A stretch of 34,809 bases of DNA. Source: Myxococcaceae bacterium. GTDB lineage: Bacteria; Myxococcota; Myxococcia; Myxococcales; Myxococcaceae. The stretch is from positions 1-34,809 of the forward strand of contig JAFGNZ010000185.1 in NCBI GenBank assembly GCA_016926755.1. Direction: 5' to 3'. Made by a program: the position numbers and the translations under genes. The notes under the pieces were generated by a model. The model made no database searches and had not been told where the DNA came from. It saw only the letters and a program-made list of their open reading frames with translations. Below, one piece after another: positions 1,197 through 12,271 of the stretch (within the stretch, counting starts at the first letter, position 1; every line of letters begins with the position of its first letter).

Positions 1197-2126
1197 TCAG
1201 CGGGACTCCAGCTCCTCCATCCCCGCCTCGTCCTCCGCGGGAGCGGCCGGCGCCACCGGAGGCAGGCGCGTGAGGTTCCACGGCTCCCCCGCCCTCCAGG
1301 CCACCTCGCCGGACAGGCCCCAGCCGCCGCGCACGGCCTCGCGGCCCTCGTACTCCAGCCAGAACACCGCCTCGTCCGGACGGGCCGCCTGATCCAGGCA
1401 GGCGATCCGCGACACCGGCCGGTGGCCCTCGCCCCCCAGCGACACCGCGAACGCCTTGTGCGAGTGCCCGCACAGCCCCCACCTCGGCCGGATCGTGTCC
1501 ACCAGCCGCCGCGTGATGGGGTTGCCGATCCAGTAGGAAGGCAGGGGCCGCCCGCTGGACAGCCCCTCGTCCCGGGCGCGCTGGACGATCCCCCGGGGCC
1601 ACTCGTGCACCAGCAGGAGATCCACGTCCCGGAGGCCGGAGAGCTTCTCCACCTCGGGCGCCCGGAAGTAGCCGGCCTGCTTCGCCGTGTCCAGCGAGGT
1701 GGGCCGCTTCAGCGGCTGCTCGAAGAAGCGCGGCGCGTGGATGCCGGACAGGTACGCGATGCGCAGCCCGTGAAGGTGCCGCAGTCCGGCACGCCCCAGG
1801 TAGTGCACATTCGGCGCCAGCTCGAAGCCCCCCGGCGCGTCATGCAGCGCCTCGAAGTCCTCGTTGTTGCCGCCAATGAAGTACAGCGGCCGCTTCATCC
1901 GCCGCGTCCCATCCGCGTACTCGGCGAACTCGGCCGGCATGGCGCGCTTGGCCGTCTTGCGCCGGTGATCATCCGAGCGCCGGAACGCCTCCACGTCCCC
2001 CACCGCCAGCACCAGCTCCACAGGCTGACCGCGCGCCTCCTCCAGCGCATCCATCCACGCCTCCACGCGGTGGAAGCGGCCATGGATGTCTCCCACGCCA
2101 ACGACGAGCAGGGGTTGTGGAGGCAT
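1197..2126 (-). CDS. Metallophosphoesterase resembling lariat debranching enzyme Dbr1
   Basis: A 309-residue calcineurin-like phosphoesterase. Metal-binding motifs are in order: GDIHGR (Asp13, His15), GDVEAF (Asp44), GGNNED (Asn87), LLVHEWP (His174) and GHSH (His221, His223). Several blocks match what I recall of eukaryotic Dbr1: FIGGN, APNVHYLGRAG, RIAYLSGI, VEKL followed by VHEWPRGI, and the GHSHKAFA end. The usual GNHE/GNHD histidine is Asn88 (AAC) here, while Dbr1 keeps that His but replaces the first-motif Asp by Cys. The ATG at 2126 has GAGGGCGGA just upstream. Cytoplasmic, with no signal peptide. Substrate unknown: Dbr1 cuts 2'-5' bonds, but bacterial relatives could act on other phosphodiesters or monoesters. 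Loss of the catalytic-type His may change activity. Confidence 0.85.
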   Translation of the reverse strand: MPPQPLLVVGVGDIHGRFHRVEAWMDALEEARGQPVELVLAVGDVEAFRRSDDHRRKTAKRAMPAEFAEYADGTRRMKRPLYFIGGNNEDFEALHDAPGGFELAPNVHYLGRAGLRHLHGLRIAYLSGIHAPRFFEQPLKRPTSLDTAKQAGYFRAPEVEKLSGLRDVDLLLVHEWPRGIVQRARDEGLSSGRPLPSYWIGNPITRRLVDTIRPRWGLCGHSHKAFAVSLGGEGHRPVSRIACLDQAARPDEAVFWLEYEGREAVRGGWGLSGEVAWRAGEPWNLTRLPPVAPAAPAEDEAGMEELESR

Positions 2127-2269: not shown

Positions 2270-5236
2270 CTAGCAACCCAGCGGGTAGATCACCTCGATG
2301 TAGGCGCCGGGAGGCGGCGCCGCATCCTTGTCGAAGAGGATGGAGTTGGTCGCGGGGACGTACACCCAGCCGGCCGTCACCTGCGCGCCGTTCACGCGCA
2401 CCACGATCTGCGCCGGATCCTCCGGCTCGTCGGAGAGCGGGAAGTTCCGCTTGGGGCCGAAGGTGGTGTCCGAGAGCTTCTTGAGGGACTCGGCCCAGTT
2501 CGGGGTGCAGATGCTCTCCACCACGCCACCGGTGGCCTGGGCCAGCTGGATGTAGCGGGTGCCGGAGCTGCTCGCGGTGGAGCAGGTGGCCAGATCCGGC
2601 GGCCCGGCGATGGCGGAGACGCTCAGCTTGCTGAGATCGTTGTCCTTCAGCGACTTGAAGTACGTCTCGTAGAAGGACACCGGCTGGTTGGAGAAGTCCT
2701 CCTCGTCGGTGACGAAGATGATGGCCAGCCGCGCCTCCTCGCGGAGGAAGCCGCCGTTGCCGTCGCCGCCCTGCGGGGTGCGCGGATCATCCGCGTTGTG
2801 CAGCAGCGGCGGCGAGAGCGCGCGGTAGGCGGCCTCCAGGCCCTGCTCGTTCCAGTGGCACACGCCCACGCGGGCGTTGGTGGCGAAGACGCCCGAGGCG
2901 TTCGGCGTGAGCGGGGTGATGATGCGCGGCGTGACGCCGCTCACCGGGAAGAGCCGGCCGTTCTCTCCACCCTCGGCGCCGCCCGGGCACTGGGACCAGC
3001 CGCCCGAAGAGGTCTCCAGGCCGGTGGTGGTGACGCCGATGTGGTAGTCCACGCCAGCGGCGGTGGCCGAGCTGAGGAAGGCCGCGAAGTTGGAGCCCAG
3101 GCTCTGCTGCTCCTCCATCATCGAGCCCGAGTTGTCCACCACGAAGAGCACGTCCACCTTGGCCGCGGACTCCTGGATGAAGATGTCCACCTGGTCCGCC
3201 CTCTGGGCGCCCTGGCCCACCAGGCTCGCCGTATACCGGGGGCCCCCGCCCAGCTCGAAGCGCAGCGCCGCCAGGTCCTCTCCGTCATCCGCGGGCGCGT
3301 ACGTGGCGCGCACCATGAAGCGCTGGTTGCCCTGGAGCGTCAGCGGGAACGAGGGCACGTTGTCCAGAAGGAACTCCTGGGTGTCTTGCTCCAGGCTCAT
3401 CCCCTGCACCGTGATGGGCACCGGGCACCGGTTGTAGGCGACGAGCTCGCGCGTGCGGGGCTCGCAGGTCAGCTTGGTGAGCCCGAACTCCACGTGGGTG
3501 GGCTGCACGGAGAAGCACCCCTGCACGCCCTCGCCCTGCACGCTCACCGTGGGGTGGCCGGCGGACGGGTGGTTCACCCAGCCCTCGGCCAGCGCGGCAT
3601 AGGAGGCCTCCGCGGCCGGCTTGAAGTGGACGCGCAGCCGGGCCTGCCGCCCGGGCTCCAGCACGGTGTTCTCCACCCGGGAGGAGGTGAAGACCGGATC
3701 CGAGCCCGCCGCGAGCTGCATGGAGGCCAGGTAGCAGGCCGTGGAGCCGGTGTTGCGCAGGGTCACCCCGAGCACCACCTCCGAGCCCACAGGCACCCGG
3801 CCGAAGTCCAGCACCTGCGGCGTAAGCGCGTACGTGCACGGCGGGAAGACCCTGCCCCGGCCCTTCAGCACCACGCCCTCCGTCGCCGTGGAGCGCCCCT
3901 GGCGCGTCGTCACGGCCAGCCCCGCCTGGCCCTCGCCTCCGCCCGCCCGCGGCGTGAAGGAGACGGCCACGAAGGCGGACTTGCCCGGCTCCAGCGGCTG
4001 GCTCGCCGGCGCCTGCGCCAGCGTGAAGAAGCCGCCGAGCTGGGGGGTGATCTGCAGATCGCTCAGCAGCACCTCCTGGCGGCAGCGGTTGAGCACCTCC
4101 ACCCGGCGCGTGGCCGACATGCCCTCCGCCACGTCGCCGAAGTCGACGATCCGCGGCTGCACCCTCACGCACGACGAGCCGCCCTCGCCCACCAGGGCCA
4201 CCTTGGGCGCAGGCGCGGAGGAGCCCTGGGCCTGCACCTGGATCGCCACGCGCCCCTCGGGGACGCGGCCATACGCCGTCGGCGTGAAGGCCACCCGGAT
4301 CTCCGCCGCCTCGCCGACCTTCAGCTCCTGGCTCGCCGGCACGTGCGCGCTCACCACGCGGAAGACGCCGCCCCCATCGGAGAGGATGCTCGCGCCCGTG
4401 TAGCGCAGCGGCTCGGTGCCCTGGTTGCGCACCATGATGCGCTCCTCGGCCGTGGCGCCCAATGCCACACTGCCGAAGTCCACGCGCACCGGAGAGATCT
4501 CCAGCTGGGAGGCGATGCCCATGCCCGTGAGCGGGACGATGGCGGGCTCACACCCCTCGCACACCGCCACGCGCACCTCCGCCAGCGCCGAGCCCAGCCG
4601 CCGCGGCTTGAACGCGATGGGGATGGCCTGCTCCTGGCCCGCCGACAGCACCACCTCCCTGCCGGCCTCGCTGGAGGAGAACTGGTCGGCGTCCGCGCCC
4701 ACCACCTGCAGGCGCAGCGGGCTGTCCACCTGCGTGGGGTTGCGCACCAGCAGCTCACGCACCTCCACCGTCCCCAGCGGCACGTTGCCGAAGTCGAGCC
4801 CCTGGCTCCTCACCTCCACCCAGGCGTTGACGCCCAGGCCGGAGAAGGACACCTGCGAGCCGCCCTCCTCCTCGGAGTCCGCGTCGGTGAAGAGCTGCAC
4901 CACGCCCTGCACCGAGCCCTCCACCTCGGGCGAGAAGCGCACCTCCACCTCGTGCTCGCCGCCCGCGCTCAGGGAGAAGGGCTCGAAGGCAGGCACCTCC
5001 ACGTTGGGCACGCTGGAGCGCGCGCTCTCGACGCGCACCGGCGCGCGGCCCTCGTTGGTCAGCCGGAGCTTCACCGTCTTCGTCGATCCCACCGCCGCCG
5101 GGCCGAACTCGAGCACCTCCGGCCACGCCGTGAAGGCCGTCCGCGCGCCCTTGCCGCTCCCCAGCCGGTCGCAGCCGCCTATCGCCGCGGCCACGCACGC
5201 CCAAGCTGCCAGGAATCGCCACCCACGTCCCCGCAT
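2270..5236 (-). CDS. Lipoprotein with six FG-motif (ASH/choice-of-anchor D) domains and a VWA domain
   Basis: A 988-residue predicted surface or periplasmic lipoprotein. The N-terminus is a signal peptide with lipobox IGGC (Cys22). Six repeats each contain a hydrophobic-x-FG-x-x-x-x-G motif at about residues 44, 149, 254, 366, 478 and 584, spaced 105-112 residues. This is the pattern of ASPM/SPD-2/Hydin-like domains that end with 'choice-of-anchor D' modules in bacteria. A von Willebrand A domain follows from about residue 695, with the MIDAS motif DNSGS at 701-705, a mid-domain Thr/Asp-rich region and VTDEED near residue 845. The C-terminus ends in GC. The ATG at 5236 is preceded by GGGAGG with good spacing. 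Likely role is metal-dependent adhesion or protein binding at the envelope; the partner is not visible. A terminator follows at 2207-2242. Confidence 0.88.
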   Translation of the reverse strand: MRGRGWRFLAAWACVAAAIGGCDRLGSGKGARTAFTAWPEVLEFGPAAVGSTKTVKLRLTNEGRAPVRVESARSSVPNVEVPAFEPFSLSAGGEHEVEVRFSPEVEGSVQGVVQLFTDADSEEEGGSQVSFSGLGVNAWVEVRSQGLDFGNVPLGTVEVRELLVRNPTQVDSPLRLQVVGADADQFSSSEAGREVVLSAGQEQAIPIAFKPRRLGSALAEVRVAVCEGCEPAIVPLTGMGIASQLEISPVRVDFGSVALGATAEERIMVRNQGTEPLRYTGASILSDGGGVFRVVSAHVPASQELKVGEAAEIRVAFTPTAYGRVPEGRVAIQVQAQGSSAPAPKVALVGEGGSSCVRVQPRIVDFGDVAEGMSATRRVEVLNRCRQEVLLSDLQITPQLGGFFTLAQAPASQPLEPGKSAFVAVSFTPRAGGGEGQAGLAVTTRQGRSTATEGVVLKGRGRVFPPCTYALTPQVLDFGRVPVGSEVVLGVTLRNTGSTACYLASMQLAAGSDPVFTSSRVENTVLEPGRQARLRVHFKPAAEASYAALAEGWVNHPSAGHPTVSVQGEGVQGCFSVQPTHVEFGLTKLTCEPRTRELVAYNRCPVPITVQGMSLEQDTQEFLLDNVPSFPLTLQGNQRFMVRATYAPADDGEDLAALRFELGGGPRYTASLVGQGAQRADQVDIFIQESAAKVDVLFVVDNSGSMMEEQQSLGSNFAAFLSSATAAGVDYHIGVTTTGLETSSGGWSQCPGGAEGGENGRLFPVSGVTPRIITPLTPNASGVFATNARVGVCHWNEQGLEAAYRALSPPLLHNADDPRTPQGGDGNGGFLREEARLAIIFVTDEEDFSNQPVSFYETYFKSLKDNDLSKLSVSAIAGPPDLATCSTASSSGTRYIQLAQATGGVVESICTPNWAESLKKLSDTTFGPKRNFPLSDEPEDPAQIVVRVNGAQVTAGWVYVPATNSILFDKDAAPPPGAYIEVIYPLGC

Positions 5237-5439: not shown

Positions 5440-6381
5440 TTACCTGCCAGGCCGCCCCGGGCCCGGGGCCCCAAGTCCCCCGACGAGCAGCCTGCCCAGG
5501 ATCCCTGTTCCCCAGAGCACACCTCCCACGCACACCCCCGCGCCCAGGAGGGCCAGCGGGGCCACCGGCTCGGCGAGGACGAGCGCGCCCAGCGCCCAGG
5601 AGAAGGCGGGGGTGAGCAGCGAGCCCACGCCCCCCAGCGCCGTGGTGACGTAGCCCATGGCATAGGTGAAGACGAGCTGCGCCAGCGCCGAGGCGAGCCC
5701 CACCCCCACCAGGATCAGCGCCGTGCCCGGCATGAGCGGCCGCCAGTCGGCGAGTGCGAACGGCAGGCCGAACAGCAGGCCGAAGATGCAGAACGAGAGG
5801 AAGACGGTGGCCGGGTCCGTGTCGTTGCGCAGCGCGCGCAGGGCGACGACGGCCGCGCCGCTGAAGACGGCGGAGAGCAGGCCCGCCCCCGCGCCCAGGC
5901 CGAAGGAGAGCGCCGGCATCTCCAGCGAGGTGCCCCAGATGACGAGCCCCGCGCCCGCCGTGGCGGCGATGAGCCCGCCCAGCAGGTGCCCGCTGACGCG
6001 CTCCTTCAGGAAGAAGAAGCCGAGGATGGAGCCAAAGATGGGCCAGCAGGCGTTGAGCAGGACGGCGGGCCCTACCGCCAGCTGCTCGATGCAGAAGAAA
6101 TAGAAGCAGACGGAGACGCCACCGAAGATGCCGCGCAGCGCCCACAGCCCGGGCCGCCCGAAGCGGGGCCTCTTCCCCATGAGCGGGTAGTAGGCGCCCA
6201 GGAACACCAGGCCCACGGCGAAGCGGCCGCACACCACCTGCCCCACGGAGAGCCGGCCGGAGAGCATGCGGGCGAACAGCGCCATGGTCGCGAACAGGAA
6301 GCTGGAAAGCACCAGCAGCGGCAGCCCGCGCCAGCGCTCGGGGAGGACGAGGCCCTTCTTCTTCATGGAGATGCGGCGCAC
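5440..6381 (-). CDS. EamA/DMT-family transporter
   Basis: A 313-residue inner-membrane protein with about ten hydrophobic segments arranged as two repeats of five, the usual layout of EamA (DUF6, drug/metabolite transporter) permeases. Recognisable parts are the N-terminal segment with FLFATMALFARML, the segment-4 block LLNACWPIFGSILGFFFLKERV that closes the first repeat, and the equivalent LTPAFSWALGALVLAEPV in the second. Such proteins export or import small metabolites; the substrate cannot be read from sequence. The start is uncertain: the longest form begins at GTG 6381, an ATG in frame lies at 6366 (MKKKG), and neither has a clear Shine-Dalgarno. It is divergent from uvrA across 134 bases. 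Confidence 0.88.
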   Translation of the reverse strand: MRRISMKKKGLVLPERWRGLPLLVLSSFLFATMALFARMLSGRLSVGQVVCGRFAVGLVFLGAYYPLMGKRPRFGRPGLWALRGIFGGVSVCFYFFCIEQLAVGPAVLLNACWPIFGSILGFFFLKERVSGHLLGGLIAATAGAGLVIWGTSLEMPALSFGLGAGAGLLSAVFSGAAVVALRALRNDTDPATVFLSFCIFGLLFGLPFALADWRPLMPGTALILVGVGLASALAQLVFTYAMGYVTTALGGVGSLLTPAFSWALGALVLAEPVAPLALLGAGVCVGGVLWGTGILGRLLVGGLGAPGPGRPGR

Positions 6382-6515: not shown

Positions 6516-9425
6516 ATGTCCGAGCCCGACGTCATCACCCTCCGCGGAGCCAAGGAGCACAACCTCAAGAACGTCTCGCTGGAGATCCCCAAGAAGAAGC
6601 TGGTGGTCTTCACGGGAGTGTCCGGCTCGGGGAAGAGCTCACTGGCCTTCGACACCCTCTACGCGGAGGGCCAGCGCCGTTACGTGGAGAGCCTCTCGGC
6701 GTACGCGCGGCAGTTCCTCGGGCAGATGGAGAAGCCCAAGTACGACACGCTGCGCGGGCTGTCCCCCACCATCTCCATCGAGCAGAAGGCGGCCAGCAAC
6801 AACCCGCGCTCCACGGTGGGCACGGTAACGGAGGTGCACGACTACCTGCGCGTGCTCTACGCCTCCATCGGCGTGCAGCACTGCCCCCACTGCGGGCGCA
6901 AGGTGGGCAAGCAGAGCGCGCAGCAGATCGTGGACGAGATCCTCAAGGCCCCGGCCGGCGCCAAGGTGCAGCTGCTGGCGCCCATCGTCACCCACCGCAA
7001 GGGCGAGCACAAAGAGCTGCTGACGGAGGCGCAGAAGCGCGGCTTCTCGCGGGCGCGCATCGACGGCAAGCTCAAGAGCCTGGAGGAGCGCATCGAGCTG
7101 GACAAGAAGTCCAAGCACGACATCGCGCTCATCATCGACCGGCTGGTGCTCAAGCCGGAGGTGCGCACGAGGCTGACGGACTCGGTGGAGACGGCGCTGC
7201 GCGAGGGCAAGGGCACGCTGATCGTCACGGACGAGACGGGCGAGGCCTCCTCGGATCGCATCATGAGCGAGCTGAACGCGTGCCACGCCTGCGGCCTCTC
7301 GTTCGGCGAGCTGACGCCGGCCTCCTTCTCCTTCAACAACCCGCTGGGCATGTGCACCGACTGCAACGGCCTGGGGACGAAGGCGGAGATGGATCCGGAC
7401 CGCATCGTCCCGGATCCGTCCCGCACAGTGCGCGACGGCGCCATCGAGCCGTGGGCCAGCGGGATGAACAAGGGCGAGGGGTGGACGGCGGACTTCGTGG
7501 AGAGCCTGGCGGACGCGTTCAAGCTCGATCTGGACGTGCCGTACGGGAAGCTCTCCGAGCGGGAGAAGAACCTGCTGATGTACGGCTCCAACGGGAAGAC
7601 GTTCACCGTGAAGTGGGGCGAGGGCGGCCGCTACAAGATGGAGTGGGAGGGCCTGGTCCACAAGCTGATGCGCAGCTTCAAGACGACCACCTCCGAGTCC
7701 ATGCGGACGTACTACCAGAAGTTCTTCAGCGACAAGCCCTGCCCCACGTGCAAGGGCGATCGCCTGAAGCCGGAGAGCCGCGCGGTGAAGGTGCACGGGT
7801 GCTCGCTGGTGGAGCTGAGCAGGCTGACCATCTCCGAGGCGCTGCGCTTCCTCTCCGAGCTGAGCCTGACGGAGAACGAGCGGAAGATCGCCACGGAGCT
7901 GCTCAAGGAGATCCGCAGCCGGCTGTCATTCCTGGTGGACGTGGGGCTGGGGTACCTGACAATGGACCGGACGGCGTCCACGCTGTCGGGCGGCGAGAGC
8001 CAGCGCATCCGGCTGGCCTCGCAGATGGGCAGCGAGCTGACCGGCGTCATCTACATCCTGGATGAGCCCTCCATCGGCCTGCACCAGCGGGACAACGGCA
8101 AGCTGCTGGCCACGCTCAAGCGGCTGCGCGATCTGGGCAACTCCGTCATCGTCGTGGAGCATGACGAGGAGACGATGGAGGAGGCGGACTGGATCGTCGA
8201 CTTCGGGCCCGGGGCGGGCGAGCTGGGCGGCCAGGTGGTGGCGCAGGGCACGCCGCGGCAGGTGATGGAGGACGAGCACAGCCTGACGGGGGCCTACCTC
8301 TCGGGGCGCAAGGAGATCGAGATCCCCCAGCAGCGGCGCAAGCCGGGCAAGCAGAAGCTGGTCATCCAGGGGGCTCGGGAGAACAACCTGAAGGATCTGG
8401 ACGTGGAGATCCCGCTGGGGGTGCTGGTGGCCGTCACCGGCGTGTCCGGGGCGGGCAAGTCCACGCTGATCAACGAGATCCTCTACCCGGCCCTGGCGCG
8501 GCAGCTGTACGAGAGCCGCGAGGTGCCGGGCCGGCACAAGTCCATCCAGGGCATGGAGCACCTGGACAAGGTGATCGACATCGATCAGCGGCCCATCGGG
8601 CGCACGCCGCGCAGCAACCCGGCGACGTACACGAAGCTGTTCGACTCGATCCGCGAGGTGTTCGCGATGACGCCGGAGGCGCGGGCGTTCGGGTACACGC
8701 CGGGGCGCTTCTCGTTCAACATCAAGGGTGGGCGCTGCGAGTCGTGCGAGGGCGACGGCGTGAAGCTGGTGGAGATGCACTTCCTGGCGGACGTGTACGT
8801 GCCGTGCGAGGTGTGCCAGGGCAAGCGCTTCAACGAGGCGACGCTGCGGGTGCGCTACAAGGGGAAGAACATCGCCGAGGTGCTGGAGATGAGCGTGCGC
8901 GAGGCGATGCAGCACTTCGGGGCGCACAAGGACATCATGCGCGTGCTCCAGACGCTGGAGGACGTGGGGCTGGGGTACATCCGACTGGGGCAGAGCTCGC
9001 CCACGCTGTCGGGCGGCGAGGCGCAGCGCATCAAGCTTGCGCGAGAGCTGGCGCGGGTGGCCACGGGGCGCACGCTCTACATCCTGGACGAGCCGACCAC
9101 GGGCCTGCACTTCGAGGACATCCGCAAGCTGCTGCTGGTGCTGAACCGGCTGACGGAGGCGGGCAACTCGGTGCTGGTGATCGAGCACAACCTGGACGTG
9201 ATCAAGAGCGCGGACTGGGTGATCGATCTGGGCCCGGAGGGAGGCTCTGGCGGGGGCAGGCTCCTGGCGACGGGCACGCCCGAGGAGGTGGCGCGGGTGG
9301 AGGCGAGCCACACGGGGCGCTACCTGGCGCACGTGCTGAAGAAGGCCCGGCGGCAGCGGGTGGGTCAGCGGGTGGAGGCCGCGGGCCCCCTGCCCCACCG
9401 CGAGAGCGCTGGCGCGAGCGCGTAG
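6516..9425 (+). CDS. uvrA: Excinuclease ABC subunit A (UvrA)
   Basis: The damage-recognising ATPase of nucleotide excision repair, acting with UvrB and UvrC in the cytoplasm. It is 969 residues, the normal size. Two ABC modules are present: Walker A GVSGSGKS at 34-41 and GVSGAGKS at 642-649, with signature LSGGE at about 490 and 831. Both zinc modules of UvrA are visible, CHAC…CTDC from residue 256 and CESC…CEVC from residue 741. The N-terminus ([13 protein letters not shown]) is canonical, which fixes the ATG at 6516 even though no Shine-Dalgarno precedes it. The last ~25 residues form a poorly conserved tail rich in Arg, Gly and Ala. Its stop is 10 bases from the convergent SitI6-like gene. 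A palindrome upstream suggests damage-inducible control. Confidence 0.98.
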
Positions 9426-10948: not shown

Positions 10949-12271
10949 TCACAGCGGTAGCCGGCCCTCGTCGCAGCGCCTCTGGCAGAGCGAGGGGGAG
11001 AGGCACGTCTGCGTACAAGGGCACAGGATCTGGCCCGTGCGGCACTCGGAAGTGCTCGTGCGGACGCACTGCCCGTTCCGGCAGTCGAAGCCTGTACCGC
11101 ACGAAGTGCCGCAGCGACCGCAGTTCGTGTCGCTGCTCTGGAGGTTGACGCAGCGGCCGCCACAGAGCGTCAAGCCCTGGGTGCACTGGCAGCTGCCTCC
11201 CTGGCAGATCTGGTTCGTGCCGCAACGCTTGCCGCACGTGCCGCAGTTCCGCGCGTCGGTGCGTAGGTCCGCGCACTCACTCGCGCAAGCGGTCAGCCCT
11301 CCCGTGCACTGACAGAGGCCATTGCGGCAGAGCTGGTTCGGACCGCAGCGCTTGTTGCAGAGGCCGCAGTGCTGCTCGTCGGTGCGGGTGTCGACACACT
11401 GGCCAGAGCAGAGGCTGAGCGTCCCCGGGCACAGACACCGGCCGTTTCGGCAGAGCAGATCCGAACCGCACGCTCTCCCGCACTCCCCACAGTGCTCGCC
11501 GTCCGTCTCCGTGTCGACGCACTCGCCACCGCACAGCGTCTGCCCTCCGGCGCAGCCGGTGCGCACGCACTGGCCCTCGCGGCAGTCGAAGTCCTCGCCG
11601 CACGCATTCCCACAGCGCCCGCAGTTCTCGTCGCTGCTCTGGAGGCTGACACAGGCCTCGCCGCAGAGCGCCAGCCCCTGGGTGCACTGGCAGACACCTG
11701 CCTGGCAGAGCTGATCCGCGCCGCACGTGCCGCCGCAACGCCCACAGTTCCGGGCATCGGCCTGGAGGTCCACGCACTCCCCCTCGCATGACGTCTGGCC
11801 CGCCGGGCACTCTGGAGGAGGCGGCTCGCCATCGCGCAACGCAAAGAAGGCCGCCACCCCTCCCCCGAGGATCCCCACGCCGATCAAGATCAGCCACCAG
11901 GGAAAGGCTCTCGCGGGCGCCACGGCGGGCGCGCTCACCGCCACGGAGATGGTGGGGCTCTCCGCGAAGCGCTCGTCAGGCACGTCATTGTCAGCGACGA
12001 CCAGGCGGAAGGTGTAGCGCCCCGGCGGAGTGCCCGGGGGCACCTGAAGGTCCACGATGAACACTTCCGTGCTCCCCGCGGCCATGTCGCGCACGACAGG
12101 GCCCCGCAGGCTCAGCCACGCGAGCGTCATGCTGTCCGAGGGCTGGAGGCTGGCCCGCGCGCGCATGGCAGCGCTCGTGACGTTGGAGACCGTGAAGGAC
12201 ACCTCACCTCGCCCGCTCGGATCCAGCGAGACAGTGGGCGCGGGGGTGGTGATGGCGAACGCTCGCGACAT
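10949..12271 (-). CDS. Membrane protein with six eight-cysteine repeats
   Basis: A 440-residue protein of unknown function. Residues 1-120 form a cysteine-free, beta-rich domain resembling Ig-like or CARDB-type modules (TPAPTVSLDPSG start, PPGRYTFRLVVADND). One transmembrane helix covers 124-144 (WWLILIGVGILGGG). The remainder has six repeats, each with eight Cys in the exact spacing C-x6-C-x3-C-x9-C-x2-C-x3-C-x5-C-x4-C, starting at Cys155, 196, 240, 281, 322 and 363, followed by a degenerate six-Cys tail. There is no N-terminal signal peptide, so the simplest topology puts the cysteine-rich part outside, where disulfides can form, and the beta domain inside. GAGGAGGAAG lies eight bases before the ATG at 12271. 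Similar repeats are frequent in myxobacteria, but I know no assigned function. Confidence 0.85.
   Translation of the reverse strand: MSRAFAITTPAPTVSLDPSGRGEVSFTVSNVTSAAMRARASLQPSDSMTLAWLSLRGPVVRDMAAGSTEVFIVDLQVPPGTPPGRYTFRLVVADNDVPDERFAESPTISVAVSAPAVAPARAFPWWLILIGVGILGGGVAAFFALRDGEPPPPECPAGQTSCEGECVDLQADARNCGRCGGTCGADQLCQAGVCQCTQGLALCGEACVSLQSSDENCGRCGNACGEDFDCREGQCVRTGCAGGQTLCGGECVDTETDGEHCGECGRACGSDLLCRNGRCLCPGTLSLCSGQCVDTRTDEQHCGLCNKRCGPNQLCRNGLCQCTGGLTACASECADLRTDARNCGTCGKRCGTNQICQGGSCQCTQGLTLCGGRCVNLQSSDTNCGRCGTSCGTGFDCRNGQCVRTSTSECRTGQILCPCTQTCLSPSLCQRRCDEGRLPL
11066..11809 (-). repeat. Six tandem coding repeats of about 123 bases
   Basis: These encode the eight-cysteine modules. The period is 41 codons, except 44 between units 2 and 3, where a CVRTG linker adds three residues. 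Units 2 and 6 are closest to each other (QSSDxNCGRCG, FDCRxGQCVRT), and units 1 and 5 share ADARNCG/TDARNCG features, which points to duplication of a four-unit block followed by divergence. Confidence 0.85.

Follow-up and report, generated by a model that had tools for sequence, protein, structure and literature searches.

The window, the whole 34,809-nucleotide stretch of DNA that was analysed (contig JAFGNZ010000185.1 of a Myxococcaceae bacterium), carries on its minus strand, at positions 1197 to 2126, an open reading frame that starts with an ATG at 2126, stops at 1199 to 1197, and encodes a product of 309 amino acids. The GC content at its three codon positions (0.76/0.50/0.92) marks the coding frame, and dN/dS values of 0.20 to 0.33 against five orthologues reveal purifying selection on the gene. 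An opposite-strand open reading frame at 1422 to 2273 was rejected as a shadow open reading frame, and codon-position GC did not select that frame. We designated the gene a metallophosphoesterase of the Dbr1/CWF19L1 branch on the basis of the open reading frame, Pfam, phmmer searches of the PDB, an AlphaFold2 model, and VIA-align. The protein and its orthologues are referred to as the GNNE family in subsequent discussion.

The syntenic neighbours on the same strand, both recognized with Pfam, are a gene for a 988-amino-acid protein with ASH/HYDIN Ig-like domains (2270 to 5236) and an EamA (DMT) transporter gene (5440 to 6381). A divergent plus-strand open reading frame (6516 to 9425) follows, which we take to be uvrA; it was named by recognition of its sequence, and its synteny was tested. 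The Dbr1-like and ASH/HYDIN genes are adjacent in most of the loci that hold this flank, and in three loci (L025, L055, and L074) the Dbr1-like gene abuts the divergent uvrA directly. In the window, the ASH and EamA genes that separate the Dbr1-like gene from uvrA may have been inserted later. The Ig domains at 2270 to 5236 are repeated and ASH/HYDIN/Cep192-like, a type that takes its name from the cilia and centrosomes of eukaryotes. Farther along the window, a minus-strand open reading frame at 10949 to 12271 matches the Pfam family of plant Stig1 (stigma-specific) proteins at 7e-30, probably because of a resemblance between Cys-rich repeats.

The GNNE gene was present in 69 of the 96 genomes of the window's own family, within a sample of 193 genomes. 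Searches of phages and plasmids with the window protein gave no match and PADLOC has no family for it; these results, together with the syntenic neighbourhood, rule out a mobile or defence origin. In most of its family, the GNNE gene is an old chromosomal core gene that has been inherited vertically and is in linkage with uvrA. One contig titled Comamonas sp. KCTC 72670 (L016, BNCN01000003.1) holds an orthologue that is 76% identical to the window protein and has the same ASH-domain neighbour; this record looks mislabelled or contaminated.

The sequence-only reading of the window had called the protein a bacterial Dbr1-like phosphoesterase, citing the blocks AVGDVEAF, FIGGNNE, APNVHYLG, and HEWPRGI, all of which are found in the 309-amino-acid translation. 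In a Pfam search up to an E value of 1 only generic Metallophos types were matched (best, PF00149 at 1.7e-10), and an NCBIfam search gave no match. However, when the protein was compared with all PDB sequences with phmmer, the matches were Entamoeba Dbr1 (E value of 2.6e-23) and CWF19L1 (1.5e-9), with none other at an E value below 1. A profile of 17 family members matched Dbr1 at 3.4e-28 and CWF19L1 at 4.4e-11. The AlphaFold2 model, built from a 30-row alignment, had a pLDDT of 91.9 and a pTM of 0.91. Foldseek ranked Dbr1 first for this model (E value of 1.6e-21), and VIA-align superimposed 250 residues within positions 4 to 262 on Dbr1 at 2.2 Å with a Z score of 29.5, compared with 23.8 for CWF19L1 and 18.1 or lower for other phosphoesterases. 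Because of the PDB matches and the gap in structural Z scores, the resemblance to Dbr1 is specific rather than superfamily level. Neither better matches to another class of phosphoesterase nor the absence of a lariat-recognition loop, which would have spoken against the assignment, was found: Dbr1 came first, and a loop of Dbr1 length with the equivalent of Arg158 is present. The window protein represents a genuine bacterial branch of the Dbr1/Drn1 kind, one that is both specific and conserved. The sequence-only reading had given no strand and had overlooked three features: the Asp at the position of Dbr1 Cys14, the lack of a Dbr1 C-terminal domain, and the occurrence of Asn-Asn in human CWF19L1 as well.

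The protein contains the motif set D-x-H ... GD ... GN ... H ... GHxH of the superfamily, and residue conservation was counted in an alignment of 60 GNNE orthologues of the window protein. The metal-ligand positions lie in GDIHG (residues 12 to 16, 2079 to 2093; Asp13 and His15), GDVE (residues 43 to 46, 1989 to 2000; Asp44), GGNNE (residues 85 to 89, 1860 to 1874; Asn87), HEWPRG (residues 174 to 179, 1590 to 1607; His174, equivalent to Dbr1 His180), and CGHSH (residues 219 to 223, 1458 to 1472; His221 and His223, equivalent to Dbr1 His230 and His232). None of the seven positions varies among the 60 orthologues, an argument that metal binding has been kept. The Entamoeba histolytica Dbr1 structures used for comparison (4pef, 4peh, and 5k77) share this ligand set with the window protein except at Cys14. 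Also shared with Dbr1 are the whole metallophosphoesterase domain (residues 4 to 262) and the SGI and H-[DE]-W-P-x-G blocks.

The residues that define Dbr1 function are a different matter. Dbr1 has an invariant Cys14 in its alpha pocket, a general acid, His91, a Tyr64 that stacks on the branchpoint adenine, a lariat recognition loop (residues 130 to 158) held by the invariant Arg158, from which Ile132, Lys134, Phe136, Phe155, and His156 contact RNA, and a C-terminal domain (residues 262 to 354); when Cys14, the loop, or the C-terminal domain was lost, the enzyme no longer functioned in yeast complementation (PMC4176325). In the GNNE family the position of Cys14 is occupied by Asp13, that of His91 by Asn88, and that of Tyr64 by Arg61, each in 60/60 orthologues. 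The loop equivalent (residues 127 to 155, 1662 to 1748) has the same 29-residue length, aligns to Dbr1 130 to 158 without gaps, and ends in Arg155, which corresponds to Arg158 and is present in 60/60 orthologues, but of the five loop contacts only Ile132 is kept (as Ile129), the other four positions being Ala131, Arg133, Gly152, and Tyr153. The Dbr1 C-terminal domain is missing. The structural match to Dbr1 ends at residues 262 to 265, and about 45 residues past the domain, a family-specific tail (residues 263 to 309, 1200 to 1340) with conserved tryptophans in a GWG...W...W pattern, stand in its place. The modelled fold and the aligned loop are thus Dbr1-like, and the aligned catalytic and RNA-contact residues are not. 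Because five tested defining features fail (the loop contacts, Cys14, His91, Tyr64, and the C-terminal domain), the window protein is outside Dbr1 proper.

The change that had first drawn attention to the gene, Asn in place of the His of GNHE, is real. Residue 88 is encoded by AAC at 1865 to 1863 and is preceded by the metal ligand Asn87, and the description of a single-codon change from CAC to AAC fits because GNHE paralogues have CAC at that codon. Whether Asn88 is conserved had been raised as a check; its invariance in all 60 orthologues rules out both a sequencing error and a mutation of one strain. Asn88 is fixed across the clade, including in L070, from a family elsewhere in the order (51% identity), and in the distant metagenome-assembled genome L026 (52 to 53%), and in the phylogenetic tree a single branch divides the orthologous clade from all other sequences. 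Dbr1 chains in the PDB entries with 7-mer and 16-mer branched RNA (5k77 and 5k78, which have the same sequence entry) read GGNAE at this motif, and the Ala is consistent with removal of the His to trap substrate. A partial literature search turned up no papers on His91/86 point mutants. Natural replacement of the His does not always end activity. The motif set D-x-H, GD, GNxE, H, and GHxH is common to the metallophosphoesterase superfamily, and YfcE, which has GNCD, hydrolyses bis-pNPP with Mn2+ (PMC4320098). YfcE-type class III phosphodiesterases resemble the window protein in this natural replacement of the motif IV His, but they are small (about 183 amino acids), belong to another branch, and were absent from the PDB sequence matches. 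By analogy, the change from His to Asn predicts altered or lost acid catalysis but not necessarily inactivity.

Our best explanation, in which we have moderate confidence, is that the GNNE protein belongs to the Dbr1/CWF19L1 branch as a soluble phosphodiesterase with two metals, whose acid catalysis is altered and whose substrate is something other than a lariat. Its basis is a fold obtained by prediction and residues assigned by alignment. Asp13, His15, Asp44, Asn87, His174, His221, and His223 would hold two metals of the Mn/Fe type, and these would activate a water molecule for attack on a phosphodiester in a nucleotide or nucleic acid that the Arg155 loop helps to hold. Asn88 cannot serve as a proton donor to a sugar-hydroxyl leaving group in the way that Dbr1 His91 does. 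The substrate is therefore probably not the branch of an RNA lariat but a molecule that brings its own acid or whose leaving group hardly has to be protonated. With the catalytic His always replaced by Asn and the metal site intact in the alignment, the probable outcomes are cleavage of some other substrate or binding without cleavage. It could also be, however, that catalysis disappeared along with the general acid, by analogy with the GGNAE chains of Dbr1 and with CWF19L1, which is described as non-catalytic and in which metal ligands have also been lost. The sequence-only reading had offered two outcomes, an unusual nucleic-acid substrate with a 2'-5' linkage or changed chemistry, of which changed chemistry has proved the better half.

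The main rival, possible but distinctly less probable than this phosphodiesterase, is a Drn1-like non-catalytic protein. Its metal site and loop would bind a partner protein or else a nucleic acid that is branched or structured, and the His-to-Asn change would prevent cleavage and leave a naturally substrate-binding form. Drn1/CWF19L1 is described as a non-catalytic partner of Dbr1 that binds it 1:1 (PMC10470207). When the PDB was searched with 53 residues around GNNE, the best match was human CWF19L1 (8ro2), which also carries Asn-Asn where Dbr1 has the GN(H)E motif, within GANNQE, and the Dbr1 chains crystallised with branched RNA likewise lack the His. CWF19L1 also shares with the window protein the ELAxNxxYLGRxG...GLxIxYLSG block as well as the fold, at the Z score given above. 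However, Asn-Asn does not define CWF19L1, because the Caenorhabditis elegans protein (8ro1) reads GPANP. Furthermore, the metal site of CWF19L1 is degenerate (His15 to Glu, Asp44 to Asn, and His174 to Ser) and most of its loop has been lost, whereas the GNNE family keeps every ligand position and the window protein has a loop of Dbr1 length. CwfJ C-terminal domains are defining for CWF19L1/Drn1; the window protein ends at 309 amino acids and gave no Pfam match to a CwfJ C-terminal domain up to an E value of 1.

A second family bears on this rival because the GNNE protein could work with it, where it is present, as Drn1 works with Dbr1. Paralogues that read GNHE were found in 30 of the 193 sampled genomes, all 30 of which also have the GNNE gene; Myxococcus xanthus, for example, carries both. 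The converse does not hold, since GNHE is absent from 39 of the 69 GNNE genomes of the same family, so it is no obligate partner. The Myxococcaceae paralogues examined (L057 to L062 and L071; for instance, L060:3671-4492, minus strand) are about 30 to 36% identical to the window protein over the full alignment and have the same fold and an Asp at the position of Cys14. Unlike the GNNE family, they keep the catalytic His91 and Tyr64 (KYRHLGDF; Tyr in 7/7). They are closer to Dbr1 than the window protein is (phmmer E value of 4.6e-31, VIA-align Z score of 31.9), and their loop is two residues longer than the GNNE loop and lacks Arg158. The GNHE family is a better candidate for a bacterial debranching enzyme than the GNNE family. 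Its genome position is variable, and in L062 and L071 the gene adjoins a DeaD-type DEAD-box RNA helicase gene with a DbpA domain.

A third group of this branch, with a short loop and GNHE/D, occurs in other Myxococcota (L063 to L068). L065 and the GNHE paralogue L060 gave a weak match to the PADLOC candidate model PDC-S10. Relatives on haloarchaeal and actinobacterial plasmids are annotated only as metallophosphoesterases. The plasmid matches H2, H3, H4, and H7, grouped with the third group, include distant relatives on haloarchaeal plasmids. A scan of viral contigs found one distant GNHE phosphoesterase (L080:4932-5687, plus strand), which belongs by motif to the third group and not to the GNNE family; a scan with the GNHE profile found none.

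In the phylogenetic tree the three prokaryotic families separate cleanly. With the motif unmasked, Dbr1 is placed on the side of the GNHE family and CWF19L1 joins the GNNE side with support of 100/99, a placement that favours the Drn1-like binder. When the motif was masked, the join of CWF19L1 with GNNE had support of 91/84, the position of Dbr1 was not firm, and a clade uniting the eukaryotic Dbr1 and CWF19L1 was not rejected (P = 0.35). The tree is suggestive only, because both eukaryotic branches, that of CWF19L1 included, are very long. One could go further and propose that the GNHE/GNNE pair mirrors Dbr1/Drn1 because both descend from one ancient duplication, so that eukaryotic lariat turnover would have inherited a pre-existing bacterial enzyme and its partner, whose original branched nucleic-acid substrate persists in myxobacteria; we regard this as a long shot.

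It is unlikely that the GNNE protein is a true bacterial 2'-5' debranching enzyme, acting, for example, on group II intron lariats or the msDNA of retrons and using another acid in place of His91. Dbr1 is the closest fold, and the loop has the length of the Dbr1 loop and its terminal Arg. In myxobacteria, msDNA is very common and carries 2'-5' branches (PMC6868368). In addition, a retron-type reverse transcriptase, counted at an E value below 1e-20 to the window genome's own type XIII-like reverse transcriptase, was present in 62 of 69 GNNE-positive but only 9 of 27 GNNE-negative genomes of the family (Fisher test, 7e-8), genomes that are not independent and whose pattern follows genera. For that reason, and because genomes that have the gene and no reverse transcriptase exist, the co-occurrence was not relied on as a link to retrons. 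No retron reverse transcriptase was detected in seven GNNE-positive genomes, and in two of the drafts that carry the gene (G048 and G150, 99 to 100% complete) no RVT_1, retron reverse transcriptase, or group II intron domain was detected. Thus, a retron or intron branch is not the sole or obligate substrate. The Rfam msr model RF00170 matched nothing in the 193 genomes, nor did it match in the controls, so that its silence carries no weight. M. xanthus carries the gene, and yet its mature msDNA is described as branched (PMC6868368). Taken with the missing general acid, Cys14, Tyr64, C-terminal domain, and most loop contacts, the two near-complete genomes in which neither a reverse transcriptase nor a group II intron was detected leave the proposal that bacteria process 2'-5' linked nucleic acids with this protein without support. 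Finally, an ordinary class III phosphodiesterase or nucleotidase resembling Dbr1 by superfamily-level accident, as the generic Pfam calls and the widely shared motif set might suggest, is very improbable given that no other metallophosphoesterase in the PDB matched at an E value below 1 and that the structural gap is large (Z score of 29.5 versus 18.1).

Dbr1 is known as a spliceosome-linked enzyme of eukaryotes, and a partial literature search found no paper describing a bacterial member. A vertically inherited gene of the same branch in M. xanthus, a tractable laboratory species that has the GNHE paralogue too, offers a way to study which role the Dbr1 fold had prior to splicing or apart from it, and to learn whether any bacterial enzyme deals with the 2'-5' branches of retrons and group II introns. 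The invariant change from His to Asn with all metal ligands kept is, moreover, a natural experiment on how much weight the general acid carries in this superfamily.
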